Part shown: positions 21,174 to 33,369 of the stretch, piece by piece | How the letters are laid out: each line of letters starts with the position of its first letter | Position numbering within the stretch: the first letter of the stretch is position 1 | NCBI GenBank assembly: GCA_902793685.1 | Contig: CADBEN010000018.1 | Span: 1-43,359, forward strand | Direction: 5' to 3' | DNA: 43,359 bases | Source of the DNA: an uncultured Lachnospiraceae bacterium | Lineage (GTDB): Bacteria; Bacillota; Clostridia; Lachnospirales; Lachnospiraceae | Notes under the pieces: generated by a model | Told to the model about the DNA's origin: nothing | Seen by the model: only the letters and a program-made list of their open reading frames with translations | The model's database searches: none | Position numbers and translations under genes: made by a program

Positions 21174-21212
21174 AAAAACAACAGGCTGTCCGAAGCGGGC
21201 AGCCTGTCTTTT
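21174..21212. terminator. Bidirectional rho-independent terminator
   Basis: ACAGGCTG (21181-21188) pairs with CAGCCTGT (21200-21207), with an A-run before and TCTTTTGTTT after. It ends both the rightward HlyD-like gene and the leftward glutamate dehydrogenase operon. Confidence 0.9.
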
Positions 21213-21245
21213 GTTTGAAAGAGTTCAATGGAGCCGGTAAGGGGA

Positions 21246-22589
21246 TCACAGGCCCTGCGCCATCATGGCTTCCGCGATCCGCTTGAAGCCTGCGATGTCG
21301 TTTCCTGCGATCAGGTCGTAGCCGAGACCGTACTTTTCAGATGCAGCCACGGAAGCATCATAGATGGACCCCATGATGTCCTGAAGACGCTGGTCGATCT
21401 CTGCGCGCTTCCAGCTGTAACGGACGCTGTTCTGCGCCATTTCCAGAGCGGAGACTGCAACGCCGCCGCAGCCCGAAGCCTTGGAACCTGCGGTGAGGAC
21501 CTTCTTGCTCATGCGGAGGATCTTCAGCGCGTCGCGGGTCGCCGGCATGTTCGCGCACTCGACATAGTAACGGTAGCCGTTGGTCAGGATCGCGACCGCG
21601 TCGTGGACGCCGATCTCGTTCTGGGTCGCGCACGGCATGGCGATGTCTGCCTCGACCTCCCACGGACGCTCGCCCGCGAAGAAGGGAACGTTGAACTTGT
21701 CGGCATAGGGCTTGACCTTGTCGACGCCGCTCATACGCATCTGGACCATGAAGTCGAACTTCTCCTGGGTGTTCACGCCGGATTCATCGTAGATGTAGCC
21801 GTCCGGGCCGGACAGAGTAACGACCTTGCCGCCGAACTCGGTTGCCTTGCGGCAGACGCCCCAGGACATGTTTCCGAAACCGGAGACCGCGATCCGCTTT
21901 CCTTCCAGCTTCTCGCCGCGGTGCTCAAGCATGCGGTTGAGGAAGTAGACAGCGCCGAAGCCTGCCGCTTCCTGACGGACCTTGGATCCGCCGTAGGTCA
22001 GACCCTTGCCGGTCAGGGCGCTGGACTCGGATCTTGCGGTGAGGCGCTTGTACTGGCCGTACAGGTAGCCGATCTCACGGGAACCGACGCCGATATCGCC
22101 GCCTGCGACGTCCGTGTCGGCACCGAGGTAACGGTACAGGGAATTCATGTAGCTCTGGCAGAAGCGCATGATCTCACGGTTGCTCTTGCCTCTGGGATCG
22201 AAGTCCGCGCCGCCGGCGGCACCGCCGATGGGCAGTCCGGTCAGAGCGTTCTTGTAGGTCTGCTCAAAGCCGAGGAACTTCACCACGGAGGGAGTTACGG
22301 AAGGATGGAAGCGAAGTCCGCCCTTGAACGGTCCGATGGCGCTGTTGAACTGGACACGGAAGCCGTGGTTGGTGTGGACGACGCCGTAATCATCGACCCA
22401 CGGGACCAGGAAGGAGAACATTCTCTCCGGCTCCACCATGCGGCTCAGGAGATCCATCTTCTCATAGCGCGGATCATCCACTGCCGGCGCGATCATTTCC
22501 AGCCAGGTCAGAGCACTCTGAAGGTACTCCGGCTCGTGGGAATAGAGTCTGATCAGATTATCTGATACACGTTTTACATATTCATTCAT
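21246..22589 (-). CDS. Glutamate dehydrogenase paralog lacking the catalytic lysine
   Basis: A 447-aa hexameric-type glutamate dehydrogenase that aligns without gaps, as far as I can place it, with the C. symbiosum enzyme through residue 380: K89 and K113 (substrate), D165 (catalytic), T193, V377 and S380 fall at the same numbers. Position 125, the catalytic lysine in GG[AG]KGGSDFDP, is Ala here (GGAAGGADFDP; codon GCC at 22217-22215), and pocket residue 163 is Gly instead of Ala. The coenzyme domain is intact (SGFGNMSWG, LSGPDGYIYD, the latter like NAD-using enzymes). It follows a fully catalytic paralog by 12 nt with a GGAGG ribosome site. Expected to be inactive or changed in activity, and perhaps a partner subunit of the upstream enzyme. 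Confidence 0.9.
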   Translation of the reverse strand: MNEYVKRVSDNLIRLYSHEPEYLQSALTWLEMIAPAVDDPRYEKMDLLSRMVEPERMFSFLVPWVDDYGVVHTNHGFRVQFNSAIGPFKGGLRFHPSVTPSVVKFLGFEQTYKNALTGLPIGGAAGGADFDPRGKSNREIMRFCQSYMNSLYRYLGADTDVAGGDIGVGSREIGYLYGQYKRLTARSESSALTGKGLTYGGSKVRQEAAGFGAVYFLNRMLEHRGEKLEGKRIAVSGFGNMSWGVCRKATEFGGKVVTLSGPDGYIYDESGVNTQEKFDFMVQMRMSGVDKVKPYADKFNVPFFAGERPWEVEADIAMPCATQNEIGVHDAVAILTNGYRYYVECANMPATRDALKILRMSKKVLTAGSKASGCGGVAVSALEMAQNSVRYSWKRAEIDQRLQDIMGSIYDASVAASEKYGLGYDLIAGNDIAGFKRIAEAMMAQGL

Positions 22590-22601
22590 GCAAGCGCCTC
22601 C

Positions 22602-23948
22602 TTATACCAGGCCGTAAGCCAGCATGGAGTCTGCCACCTTCAGGAAGCCGGCGATATTGGCTCCTACCATCAGATTGCCCGGATGGCCGTATTCTGCGGC
22701 TGCCGCGGCGACATTCTTGTACAGGTCGGACATGATGCCCTTCAGCTTCTCATCGACCTCTTCGAAGGTCCAGTAGAAACGCATGGAGTTCTGGCTCATC
22801 TCCAGAGCGGAGACTGCGACGCCGCCGGCGTTGGATGCCTTGGAGGGCGTATACATAAGGCCTGCTTCCAGGATCGCGTCGATGCCGTCCGGAGTGGTGG
22901 GCATGTTGGAGCCTTCGCAGACTGCCTTGCAGCCGTTGGCGATCAGGGCCTTTGCGGACTCGAGGTTGATCTCGTTCTGGGTCGCGCACGGGAATGCGAG
23001 ATCGCAGGGGATGGTCCAGATGCCTCTGCAGCCTTCGTGATACTCTGCGGAGGGCTTTCTCTCGACGTAGACCTTGATTCTCTTGCGCTCGACTTCCTTG
23101 ATCTGCTTGATCAGGTCGAGATCGATGCCGTCCTTGTCATAGATATATCCGTTGGAATCGGACATTGCGACGACCTTTGCGCCGAGCTCGGTGGCCTTCT
23201 GGCAGCAGTAGATCGCGACGTTTCCGGAACCGGAGACAACAGCGATCTTGCCTTCGAAGCTGTCGCCGTGGTCCTTCAGCATGCAGTCGGTGAAGTAGCA
23301 CAGTCCGAAGCCGGTAGCTTCCTTACGTGCCAGGGATCCGCCGTAGCTTAAGCCCTTGCCGGTCAGGGTTCCGGTGAACTCGTTGCGCAGGCGCTTATAC
23401 TGACCGAACAGATAGCCGATCTCGCGGGCACCGACACCGATATCGCCGGCCGGGACGTCCGTATCCGGTCCGATGTGGCGGAACAGCTCGTTCATGAAGC
23501 TCTGGCAGAAACGCATGACCTCTGCGTCGGACTTGCCGTGGGGATCAAAGTCAGAGCCGCCCTTGCCGCCGCCGATCGGAAGTCCGGTCAGGGAGTTCTT
23601 AAAGGTCTGCTCAAAGCCCAGGAACTTGATGATGCTCTCGTTGACAGAGGGATGGAAGCGAAGTCCGCCCTTGTACGGTCCGATGGCGCTGTTGAACTGG
23701 ATACGGTATCCGCGGTTGATATGGATATTGCCCTGATCATCCTCCCACGGAACACGGAACTTGATGGTGCGCTCCGGCTCGACCAGAGCGTCCATAACAC
23801 CTTCGGTGATCAGTTCCGGACGTGCATCGCAGACCGGGGAGAGGGAAGCCAGCACTTCGCGGACAGCCTGATGAAACTCCGGCTCGTTGGGGTCGCGTGC
23901 GATGACCTTCTCCATCAACTCGTTCAGATAGGCATTTTCGATACTCAT
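22602..23948 (-). CDS. gdhA: Glutamate dehydrogenase, catalytically complete
   Basis: A 448-aa enzyme interconverting glutamate with 2-oxoglutarate and ammonia. All key residues are present: K93, K117 and catalytic K129 (LPIGGGKGGSDFDP), D169, and the VAVSALEMSQNS segment. The Rossmann domain carries SGSGNVAIY and SDSNGYIYD; Ser at that strand end is usual in NADP-preferring members, in contrast with the paralog's NAD-like LSGPDG. ATG 23948 has GGAGG 8 nt upstream; an in-frame TTG further out is unlikely. First gene of a two-gene operon with the promoter at 24000-24028. The pair differs in coenzyme signature and catalytic competence. Confidence 0.95.
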   Translation of the reverse strand: MSIENAYLNELMEKVIARDPNEPEFHQAVREVLASLSPVCDARPELITEGVMDALVEPERTIKFRVPWEDDQGNIHINRGYRIQFNSAIGPYKGGLRFHPSVNESIIKFLGFEQTFKNSLTGLPIGGGKGGSDFDPHGKSDAEVMRFCQSFMNELFRHIGPDTDVPAGDIGVGAREIGYLFGQYKRLRNEFTGTLTGKGLSYGGSLARKEATGFGLCYFTDCMLKDHGDSFEGKIAVVSGSGNVAIYCCQKATELGAKVVAMSDSNGYIYDKDGIDLDLIKQIKEVERKRIKVYVERKPSAEYHEGCRGIWTIPCDLAFPCATQNEINLESAKALIANGCKAVCEGSNMPTTPDGIDAILEAGLMYTPSKASNAGGVAVSALEMSQNSMRFYWTFEEVDEKLKGIMSDLYKNVAAAAAEYGHPGNLMVGANIAGFLKVADSMLAYGLV

Positions 23949-23999: not shown

Positions 24000-24028
24000 A
24001 TCATAGCACATAAAATCCGGACTGTTAA
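24000..24028 (-). promoter_or_regulatory. Predicted promoter of the glutamate dehydrogenase operon
   Basis: On the minus strand TTAACA (24028-24023), 17 bp, then TATGAT (24005-24000) preceded by TGC, an extended -10. It is about 52 bp before the start codon. Confidence 0.65.
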
Positions 24029-25645: not shown

Positions 25646-26611
25646 TTACTTATTCACCACATTGACGGGAGCGCCGTCCATGAAGGCTTTGATGTTGTCC
25701 GCGGTGGTCTGCATGATGCGCTCACGGGCTTCCTTGGTGGCCCAGGAGATGTGCGGGGTGATGATGCAGTTCTTCGCGGTGAGGAGGACGTTGTCCGCCT
25801 TGATGGGCTCGGTGGAGACGACATCGACCGCGGCAGCGGCAAGCTTGCCGGAGTTCAGAGCGTCCGCGAGATCCTGCTCCACCACCAGCGGGCCGCGGCT
25901 GTTGTTGATGAGGATCGCGCCGTCCTTCATCTTTGCGATGTTGTCCTTGTTGATGATGCCCTGGGTGGAGGGGAACAGCGGGCAGTGCAGGAAGACGAAG
26001 TCAGACTTCGCCAGCAGCTCGTCCAGCTCCACATATTCCGCGACGGCCTTGCCGGCTTCAGACTGGAAGGCGTCGTAGGCGATGACGTTCACGTTCATGG
26101 CTCTCAGGATCTTTGCGGTATTGACGCCGATCTTGCCGAGGCCGATGATGCCTGCGGTCTTGCCGGAGACTTCGATCATCGGGAAGTGCCAGTAGCACCA
26201 GTCGACGTTGGATGCCCACTCGCCGGCGTGGACGGAATCATTGTGGTGGCCGATGTGGGAGCAGACCTCAAGAAGCAGGCTGACCGCGAACTGGCTCACG
26301 TTGTCGGTGCCGTAGACCGGGACGTTCAGGACCGGGATGCCTTTTTCCTTCGCGTACTCATAATCCACGACATTGTAGCCGGTGGCAAGGACAGCGACAG
26401 CCTTCAGGTCCGGGCACGCGTCGATGGTTGCCTTGCTGATAGGGGTCTTGTTGATGACTGCGATCTCTGCGTCTCCAAGGCGCTCTGCGATGACCGGGTC
26501 ATCCACATAGGAAGTGCGGTCGTAAACGGTTACTTTGCCAAGGGCCTCAAGGGGAGCCCAGCTGATATCTCCGGGATTCTCGGTGTATCCGTCAAGCACA
26601 ACGATCTTCAT
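25646..26611 (-). CDS. D-2-hydroxyacid dehydrogenase (NAD-dependent)
   Basis: A 321-aa enzyme of the glycerate/hydroxypyruvate/lactate dehydrogenase family. The Rossmann fingerprint GLGKIG is at 157-162, with D180 at the strand end suggesting NAD. The catalytic triad is R239 (NNSRG), E268 (STEP) and H287 (TPHISW). Length is typical. AGGAGG precedes the ATG. It lies 94 bp downstream of the TIM-barrel isomerase gene and in the same direction as that and the IclR regulator, so it probably belongs to one carbohydrate-acid pathway. Hydroxypyruvate or glyoxylate reductase activity is the best guess. Confidence 0.92.
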   Translation of the reverse strand: MKIVVLDGYTENPGDISWAPLEALGKVTVYDRTSYVDDPVIAERLGDAEIAVINKTPISKATIDACPDLKAVAVLATGYNVVDYEYAKEKGIPVLNVPVYGTDNVSQFAVSLLLEVCSHIGHHNDSVHAGEWASNVDWCYWHFPMIEVSGKTAGIIGLGKIGVNTAKILRAMNVNVIAYDAFQSEAGKAVAEYVELDELLAKSDFVFLHCPLFPSTQGIINKDNIAKMKDGAILINNSRGPLVVEQDLADALNSGKLAAAAVDVVSTEPIKADNVLLTAKNCIITPHISWATKEARERIMQTTADNIKAFMDGAPVNVVNK

Positions 26612-30798: not shown

Positions 30799-30852
30799 TG
30801 ATGTAATATCATGAATAATTTTCTTACATTACACCACGGGAGGAAATGGAAA

Positions 30853-33369
30853 GTGAGAAAAGAGAATATGATGAGACGTGCTGCGGCACTGATGGCCGCG
30901 GCTCTGATCCTCGGCGGATGCGGCTCGGCATCCTCTTCCGCGCCGGCACGGCAGGCGGCTCCGGCGGAGAATGCGGCGGAAGCTGCCGCGGAAGAAAAGG
31001 CACAAGATGCAGCTGCTGCAGCGGAAGAAAAAGCCGAAGCCGCGGCAGAGGCGGCAGCGGAAGAGAGCGCGGACCCTGCCGCGAAGGAAAAGATGGAATC
31101 CGCGGCGGAAGAGAAAACGGAGGCGGTGGAGAAAGCAGCCGCTGACAGCGAAAAGACCTTCGCGGAAAAGGTCGTGGGCAGATATACCTGCGCTGACGGA
31201 GACAGTGAAGTCTACGTGCTGGAGCTGATGAACGTGCACGGCAATCTTTACGCCAAGGCAGGCATTGCCATGGCAGATGATTCCGAAGGGGCAGATTCTG
31301 CGGCAGGTGCAGGCGGCGCGGCGCAGGCATCCTTCCCCGAAACATATTCCTTCTGGGCCATGGAACTGATCCCGAAGGACGCCGGCGCACTGCTCCGGAC
31401 CGACACGGAAGAAGCGGAGGTCGGAATCCTCAGCTTTTCCATCATGTCCAACATGAGCAAGTACTGGAGTTCCCCGGAGAAAGCGATCCTCCGCCTGACG
31501 GATGACGGTGTTGTGATCGCTTCCGCGGAGAAGGGCGCCGGAGGGGAGGAGGCCTTCCTGGAATACAAACGCTGGCCGGATGCCTCGGCCGCGGTGGCGG
31601 ATCCCGGAATCGTTTCCGTAAATACGGACACTCCGGGGCTGGACGGGCTGGACGGAACGGAGATTCCGGATGAGCTTTACGGACTCTGGAAAGAAAAGGA
31701 CAGCGGCAGCCCCTATGTTCTGGAATTCCTGCGGACGGAAAGCGGGAAGGAAAAGAACCGCGGCATTCTCCGGATCTGGCGGAAGAAGCCCGGTGCCGAA
31801 GTGTACTTAAGCGACGAAGCCTTTCTCTGCACACCGCAGGAGAAAGCAGACGGGGCGCAGGATCCGAAGGACGGGAAAGCCCGCGTTCTTCACGCGTCCG
31901 GCACCGTGCTCGGCAACGGGGATATGCCCACTATGTGGGAAGACTGTTTTGTGCTGAAGGACGGTATCCTGACCTTCCCGGCGCGGAGCAGCGCCGCGGG
32001 GATCTATGATTCCGTTTTTTCCGGTGAAAAGGACACGGTATTCGAGCGCGCGGAAGAGACGGATATCCCGCTCTCGCAGCTTGCTGAAGCGGACGATGTC
32101 AGCGCGATCCGGCACGAAGGGAAGGCGGAGACGCCTGCGGGCGCCCGCGCGGTGATCCCCCAGTTTCTGGCTTCGGAAGACGTGGAAAACAACGGCGGAA
32201 ACTTCCTCCGGGTGGGAGATCTGGTCTTCTTCCGTGACGTGAGAGAAGGACTTGACGGAGTCACCGCGCTCTGGGGAGACTTCCTGAATGTACCGGACCT
32301 TTCGGAAAACTCGAAAGTCATGTATTACGACCGCTGCACCGGCGAGACGGGAACGGCGTTTGAGGACGGCGGGTACGGTGCCCTCTGGTATCTGGACGGC
32401 AGGTTCTATTCAGCAGCGCCCGGGAAGAACGCGGATGAGAACTACTCCGGCCAGAGCCTGCACCGCTGCTGGCCTGACGGAAGCGGGATGGATGACATCT
32501 CGGAGGGAAACTACGCCTCGGTCACGGGGGCTTCGGAGAAGAATGATTACCTGTCGATCCATCAGTATGTGAGCGGGCAGGAACAGTATCTTGTCTACGA
32601 CGGCTCGGTCTATCCTGTCCAGCTGATTGAGCCGGAAAACGATGAGTACTTTGTTTATGCCGGTTTTGCGGGAGAAGACCTGATCCTGGTCTCCCGTACC
32701 GGGGACCGGTACCCGGTGTCGGAAATCGACCTGGAGACCGGAGAGAAGATCCGTCTCGGAGAACTGCCGTACAATGAGGCGCAGGATTACGCCGGAGCGG
32801 AGATCATCCAGCTGTATCAGGAAGAGGATGACATTTACCTCGGCGTCGGCTGGTATGCGGGCACAGGCCACTTCCTGAACGGTTATTACATCGTGAAGAT
32901 GAAGGCCCGGACGGAAAACAGCGTGGAAGAGGTTCCGGCCGAGCTGCCGGAATCGGAAGGCGATCCGGAAAGCCCCTGGTTTTTCCTGAACGCCGCAGGC
33001 GAAGTCCTGTTTACAAAGTATGATCCCGCGGGCGAGGTCGCCCTTTCAGAGACCGACTGCGGAGATCTGCTGTATGTCGACAGCCCCTTCGGCGTATCGA
33101 TCCTTGAAAAGGACTTCATCAGGGAATCAGAGGCGAGAAGCAGCGAAGCGGAGACGGTCCGGATCCTTCAGGACGCAGAGTTTGTGGACGGAGCGGCCTG
33201 GATCATCACGGCGGACGCGTCCCGGGCGCCGGAGGAGGACATCGGCTGGAGAAGCGCCTATGCTGCCAAAGGCATGACCTGGCAGCGGATCCAGGTGTAC
33301 AACATCTCCGTTTCCGCGGATGAAAACTTCCCGATCGAAACGATCCTCGACAGCAAGACAAAACCATAA
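30853..33369 (+). CDS. Large surface lipoprotein with Ala/Glu/Lys helical stalk
   Basis: About 838 aa. A short signal peptide ends in the lipobox LILGGC, followed by a low-complexity Ala/Glu/Lys stretch (~residues 30-100) that should form a long charged helix or stalk. The rest (~105-838) is acidic, beta-rich and unrecognised. It has repeated short segments such as MYYDRCTGETG, DGRFYSAAPG, YLVYDGSVYPV and EIDLETGEKIRLGEL that look like blades of a beta-propeller, similar to DUF5050-type surface proteins. GTG 30853 is chosen for its GGGAGGAA site; ATGs at 30868 and 30871 are alternatives. Function unknown; extracellular sensing or binding is likely. It precedes the MBL gene by 23 bp. Confidence 0.78.
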   Translation: MRKENMMRRAAALMAAALILGGCGSASSSAPARQAAPAENAAEAAAEEKAQDAAAAAEEKAEAAAEAAAEESADPAAKEKMESAAEEKTEAVEKAAADSEKTFAEKVVGRYTCADGDSEVYVLELMNVHGNLYAKAGIAMADDSEGADSAAGAGGAAQASFPETYSFWAMELIPKDAGALLRTDTEEAEVGILSFSIMSNMSKYWSSPEKAILRLTDDGVVIASAEKGAGGEEAFLEYKRWPDASAAVADPGIVSVNTDTPGLDGLDGTEIPDELYGLWKEKDSGSPYVLEFLRTESGKEKNRGILRIWRKKPGAEVYLSDEAFLCTPQEKADGAQDPKDGKARVLHASGTVLGNGDMPTMWEDCFVLKDGILTFPARSSAAGIYDSVFSGEKDTVFERAEETDIPLSQLAEADDVSAIRHEGKAETPAGARAVIPQFLASEDVENNGGNFLRVGDLVFFRDVREGLDGVTALWGDFLNVPDLSENSKVMYYDRCTGETGTAFEDGGYGALWYLDGRFYSAAPGKNADENYSGQSLHRCWPDGSGMDDISEGNYASVTGASEKNDYLSIHQYVSGQEQYLVYDGSVYPVQLIEPENDEYFVYAGFAGEDLILVSRTGDRYPVSEIDLETGEKIRLGELPYNEAQDYAGAEIIQLYQEEDDIYLGVGWYAGTGHFLNGYYIVKMKARTENSVEEVPAELPESEGDPESPWFFLNAAGEVLFTKYDPAGEVALSETDCGDLLYVDSPFGVSILEKDFIRESEARSSEAETVRILQDAEFVDGAAWIITADASRAPEEDIGWRSAYAAKGMTWQRIQVYNISVSADENFPIETILDSKTKP

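Follow-up and report, generated by a model that had tools for sequence, protein, structure and literature searches.

The window analysed here, a 43,359 nt stretch of DNA from an uncultured Lachnospiraceae bacterium, carries two glutamate dehydrogenase (GDH) genes in tandem on the reverse strand. The upstream gene (22602..23948), which we call the partner, is shown by its ORF, alignment and profile match to encode a complete NADP-type GDH of 448 aa, and it retains Lys125, Ala163 and the other catalytic residues checked. Its TAA stop codon is followed by 12 nt (22590..22601, reverse strand) that include a Shine–Dalgarno sequence, GGAGG, and then by the ATG of the second gene (GGAGGCGCTTGC); both the spacing and the completeness of the upstream gene had been correctly anticipated. 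The second gene (21246..22589) encodes a GDH paralogue of 447 aa without the catalytic lysine, referred to below as the pseudo-GDH. A promoter-like TTAACA-17-TATGAT lies upstream of the pair (24000..24028, reverse strand) and a terminator-like hairpin right downstream of it, between convergent genes (21181..21207, not assigned to a strand), with the count of such sites at chance level in both cases. Comparison of the window with Rfam gave no RNA element. Elsewhere in the window, a long lipoprotein-like ORF (30811-33369, forward strand) has, by eye, an Ala/Glu/Lys-rich stretch after an N-terminal signal-like region. The genome from which the window comes (63 contigs, 2.54 Mb) has four GDH genes, and the two on other contigs have Lys125. 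In one of these (L004 1501-2823; contig C25:26446-27768) Lys125 is accompanied by Met110, Ser163, Cys193, Ser240 and Ser373, and with its altered pocket and nicotinamide site this enzyme may have a different substrate.

The pseudo-GDH ORF is full length, of the Clostridium symbiosum type, and has no internal stop codons. Its nearest solved relative is the NAD-specific GDH of C. symbiosum (1bgv), which it matches end to end using HMMER (E = 3.4e-169) and without gaps from residue 39, so that the C. symbiosum numbering is valid for it and is used throughout. The two proteins share this numbering, the fold and the glutamate pocket, but the pseudo-GDH lacks Lys125, Thr209 and Asn373 and is encoded in tandem with an NADP-type gdhA. 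Both Pfam domains, PF02812 and PF00208, are present, which places it within the Glu/Leu/Phe/Val dehydrogenase superfamily, and a single-chain AF2 model (pLDDT 87.8) has an ordinary GDH fold, with 1k89 as the top Foldseek match (TM 0.96). Codon 125 is GCC (Ala, 22215..22217), as originally predicted, codon 373 is GGC (Gly, 21471..21473) where the Asn of the nicotinamide site is expected, codon 209 is GCA (Ala, 21963..21965) where a Thr near the nicotinamide is expected, and codon 163 (22101..22103) specifies Gly in place of Ala, all on the reverse strand. Alignment also agrees with the original prediction that K89, K113, D165, T193, V377 and S380 are retained at the C. symbiosum numbers, and that the coenzyme loops differ, being NAD-like in the pseudo-GDH (P262-D263) and NADP-like in the partner (S-N). 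The two adjoining proteins are only about 50 % identical. A 445 aa open frame (21228-22565, forward strand) runs antisense to nearly the whole pseudo-GDH gene, and an antisense frame of 942 aa covers both GDH genes at another locus, L018; these frames are probably a by-product of GC-rich codon usage (GC3 ~0.78).

The window protein belongs to a recurrent group. A scan across contigs of GTDB genomes confirmed 589 stretches, of which the best 80 were compared; among these, 14 loci (L005-L018) encode proteins 73-78 % identical to that of the window, with Ala or Ser at position 125 and Gly at 373; the other 66 are 54-62 % identical, and all have K125 and N373. When 400 genomes from the family of genome G313 were searched, 14 gave matches at 73-79 % before identity fell to 61 % with the next match; the 11 not already in the set are likewise without K125 and N373. 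Together with the window these make 26 distinct members (the window, the 14 loci and 11 from the family search). The 14 named records with a pseudo-GDH, mostly metagenome-assembled genomes, carry the labels Oscillospiraceae, Lawsonibacter, Pseudoflavonifractor, Clostridium or Firmicutes. Elsewhere the gene is rare, the window genome being the sole carrier among the 7 genomes of its genus, 299 genomes sampled from its family and 391 from its class. Plasmid carriage was considered and rejected: 210 plasmid records match the window pseudo-GDH at E up to 1e-100, but every one at less than 60 % identity, so that none resembles a clade member. We recognised no published account of such a GDH pair among titles and the starts of abstracts, a survey mainly of open-access literature, which does not prove absence.

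The residues that set this clade apart were defined in a comparison of 168 sequences, comprising 26 pseudo-GDHs, 23 partners (including L091, which is unpaired by reason of a contig end), 97 NAD-like and 22 NADP-like GDHs. Duplicates (L003, L132-L134) and GDH proteins shorter than 380 aa or with a stop were left out, including the partners of L005, L011, L123 and L126, which are truncated at contig ends. Position 125 is Ala in 14 and Ser in 12 clade members, and Lys in 142/142 other GDHs; the absence of Lys125 from 26/26 pseudo-GDHs and 0/142 others is beyond chance. Asn373 is replaced by Gly and Thr209 by Ala in all 26, two clade-wide losses that the original prediction had not included, and the signature extends to P368G, G190S and, in 25/26, V241M. 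Gly163 had been put forward as a companion of Ala125. It is indeed present in the window, but it occurs there together with P162A and in no other member (1/26), which rules it out as a clade signature; the companions that recur with the loss of Lys125 are N373G and T209A. K89, K113, D165, R205, N347 and S380 are invariant in the clade, as is the NAD-type loop P262-D263, and loop 186-190 has been remodelled into a nearly fixed form. The remainder of the protein is well kept: the 142 other GDHs share 71 fully identical columns, and at 65 of these no pseudo-GDH deviates; of the remaining six, K125, V241 and P368 are lost clade-wide and three vary in a few sequences. Among 144 columns at least 95 % conserved in other GDHs, there are 11 (22, 61, 125, 190, 209, 241, 368, 373, 374, 430 and 431) at which the usual residue never occurs in a pseudo-GDH. 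Several of these fixed changes (22, 61, 430 and 431) fall in the N- and C-terminal parts, which belong to the hexamer-building domain.

All 26 pseudo-GDH genes lie directly downstream of a gdhA gene on the same strand, and none (0/26) was found away from gdhA; the idea that the clade lacking Lys125 always sits beside a normal gdhA thus held throughout. The upstream gdhA products at the 25 loci other than the window are 72-83 % identical to the window partner, some being fragments where contigs end, and the gap between the two genes is 11-13 nt at 22 of the 26 loci and 24, 53, 170 and 302 nt at the others. With the partner as query against the 400 family genomes, each of the 12 top matches (76-83 %) came from a pseudo-GDH genome, the partners in the other two such genomes (G683 and G655) being cut by a contig end; the next three matches, at 72-75 % (G415, G483 and G393), come from genomes without a pseudo-GDH and fall outside the paired clade. 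Phylogenies were built from 105 of the 168 sequences (with 34 of the 97 NAD-like GDHs) for the large tree and from 38 for the partners. The pseudo-GDHs form a single clade (SH-aLRT 100) on a long stem (0.69), placed beside NAD-type GDHs with a support of 84 for the wider grouping, all as given by a quick tree. The paired gdhA genes likewise form one clade (support 100/98), which takes in L091, whose own pairing is hidden by the contig end. In the simplest history that we can infer, an NAD-type GDH lost its catalytic function once and became linked early to one gdhA lineage, after which the two genes would have been inherited or moved as a unit.

Two loci depart most from the close spacing. In L124 (1196-1500) and L130 (2842-3014) the gap is 302 and 170 nt, respectively, instead of 12 nt, and these long spacers contain inverted repeats, the first of them, by eye, terminator-like with a short T-run right after the gdhA stop; both genes may therefore be separately transcribed there. 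An RNA element in these spacers was rejected, as four Rfam matches in five loci were all below gathering scores and none was in a spacer. A wider conserved operon was likewise rejected: around the window and 10 of the other 25 loci, 11 neighbourhoods in total, nothing recurs except, in four of them, a pair of genes that by eye are DnaK-like and J-domain-like, in what was a rough comparison, since the ORF picker took antisense ORFs over GDH genes in several.

The consequences of the losses can be gauged from characterized enzymes. In plant GDH1, the imine is attacked by a water molecule that the catalytic Lys102 primes, and Asp142 acts as general base; Asn312, Asn337, Thr185 and Asn216 make up the nicotinamide site, and the authors remark that in their structure the geometry rules out hydrogen bonding between Thr185 and the amide (PMC7326016). 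By motif spacing these residues correspond to K125, D165, N347, N373, T209 and N240 of C. symbiosum, with one residue of slack between the last two Asn. By this mapping, 26/26 clade members retain the general base and half of the four nicotinamide-site residues (N240 and N347) and are without the catalytic Lys and the other two (T209 and N373). The glutamate pocket of Thermococcus GDH, given as Lys69, Lys93, Lys105, Arg187 and Ser351 (PMC11096400), corresponds on the same basis to K89, K113, K125, R205 and S380; four of these five residues are invariant in 26/26, and the catalytic Lys alone is gone. Docking to Escherichia coli GDH has the catalytic Lys holding the keto oxygen and K116, N348, K92 and S380 holding the carboxylates (PMC8784811). 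Set against the features of catalytic GDHs (EC 1.4.1.2-4), the pseudo-GDH thus has D165 and the carboxylate-binding residues but neither Lys125 nor the full nicotinamide-site set. With the pocket residues retained and the catalytic Lys lost, the sequence indicates that substrate binding has probably been kept and GDH chemistry dropped. Any dehydrogenase reaction seems less likely after loss of both the catalytic Lys and two of four nicotinamide-site residues, and the remodelling of loop 186-190 makes a different ligand possible.

It is most improbable that the pseudo-GDH reflects gene decay, erroneous sequencing or a mis-binned contig. No other member has as many private changes at sites fixed elsewhere in the clade as the window copy does (12, the next having 7), and none of the other six genomes of its genus was found to carry the gene. 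As the sole sampled member of its sub-lineage the window copy need not be decaying on that account, although its 12 private changes still weigh against it. The change recurs, however, in 26 assemblies under purifying selection, with a median pairwise dN/dS (NG86, dS 0.05-1) of 0.19 for the pseudo-GDHs (285/325 pairs), like the 0.17 of the partners (205/253 pairs). For the clade this refutes decay, assembly error and contamination, and it bears out the view of a selected change taken in the original prediction, as does the conservation of Ala or Ser at 125 in all 26 members. A genome of the same genus, G006, encodes a partner with 95 % protein identity to that of the window, and its DNA is 89 % identical to the window stretch from 24050 on, about 100 nt upstream of the partner gene; its contig ends before the second gene would start, and no pseudo-GDH was found in this draft, which is given as 82 % complete. 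The window gene at 25646-26611 is 83 % identical in G006 and about 70 % identical in another two genomes from the genus and family, so that the contig fits its genome.

We consider it rather more probable than any alternative that the pseudo-GDH is a dedicated non-catalytic paralogue which keeps its ligand pocket and regulates the adjacent GDH, likely in mixed hexamers. Such a protein would be unable to run the GDH reaction but would still bind substrate and perhaps NAD(H); it would enter mixed hexamers with the adjacent GDH, and closure of its cleft on a ligand could raise or lower the activity of the active subunits, making it a sensor or regulatory subunit. A non-catalytic regulatory subunit appears the most economical model, and mixed hexamers with regulation of the active paralogue, as originally proposed, are plausible, the case for them being one of gene linkage and not of physical contact. 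Against this reading, the partner is only about half identical and of the other coenzyme type; moreover, sister gdhA genes occur without a pseudo-GDH (G415, G483 and G393), so a GDH of this kind does not need one. The long spacers of L124 and L130 and the remodelled loop 186-190 count against it too. A more specific and decidedly tentative form of the proposal is a 'prozyme' of nitrogen assimilation, in which a catalysis-free NAD-type GDH would serve as the sensor subunit of an NADP-type GDH, with bound glutamate, 2-oxoglutarate or NAD(H) gating the live subunit and coupling both coenzyme pools.

The presence of Asp165 and the carboxylate-binding residues in 26/26 members, and of clade-specific fixed residues in loop 186-190 and at 368 and 374, as in an altered pocket, would also suit an enzyme with another reaction or substrate that needs no Lys125 and lies beside gdhA through a common pathway. 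We regard this as unlikely, since the missing T209 and N373, two of the four nicotinamide-site residues of plant GDH1, make a poor fit with hydride transfer (PMC7326016), and no further pathway gene is common to the 11 neighbourhoods. The same general base and the full complement of named carboxylate-binding residues could be taken to indicate a working, if slow, GDH with a substitute for Lys125; this is very improbable, given that the lysine, which primes the imine-attacking water in the accepted mechanism (PMC7326016), is present in 142/142 other GDHs, that T209 and N373 are lost as well, and that 12 of the 14 genomes reached via the loci have at least one more GDH match besides the pair, some of them fragments. 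A pocket apparently kept without the chemistry, and the long spacer at 2/26 loci, would be compatible with a stand-alone ligand-binding homo-oligomer that is merely co-expressed with gdhA and acts elsewhere, but this we think quite doubtful, as 0/26 pseudo-GDHs occur away from gdhA and one gdhA clade alone carries them.

The closest precedent for a regulatory subunit is in Thermus thermophilus, whose GDH hexamer is described as including a regulatory subunit that has no catalytic activity (PMC9570180). GdhA (inactive, regulatory) and GdhB (catalytic) are likewise two GDH paralogues of which one is inactive, although inactivity is shown there and predicted here (PMC9570180). They belong to another GDH subfamily, and a hetero-hexamer and leucine control would be hypothetical in the present case; the Thermus 3aoe chains match the window pseudo-GDH with E values of 4e-50 and 4.6e-41, as against 3.4e-169 for C. 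symbiosum, so the kinship is not close. In trypanosomatids, the AdoMetDC prozyme and a dead deoxyhypusine synthase paralogue are described as activating their own active enzymes in hetero-oligomers (PMC5201418, PMC3663545), and there, as we propose for the pseudo-GDH, a dead paralogue is retained by selection with the active enzyme. These are unrelated eukaryotic enzyme families, and the likeness is one of how they work only.

Against the NCBIfam model NF006929, 'NADP-specific glutamate dehydrogenase', the window protein reaches 590.7 bits where the cut-off is 536 bits, and the model matches 26/26 clade members by E-value, the bit score being for the window protein only. Automatic annotation would therefore probably call the pseudo-GDH an active enzyme, and in gut metagenomes such proteins would probably be included among the active enzymes. 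As a hexamer, GDH is a textbook case of allostery, and a naturally occurring pair with one subunit that is without the catalytic Lys and yet has the pocket would allow binding to be separated from catalysis within one assembly. In these gut bacteria a well-kept sister gene stands right behind a normal GDH gene, and its product probably senses or controls and does not catalyse.
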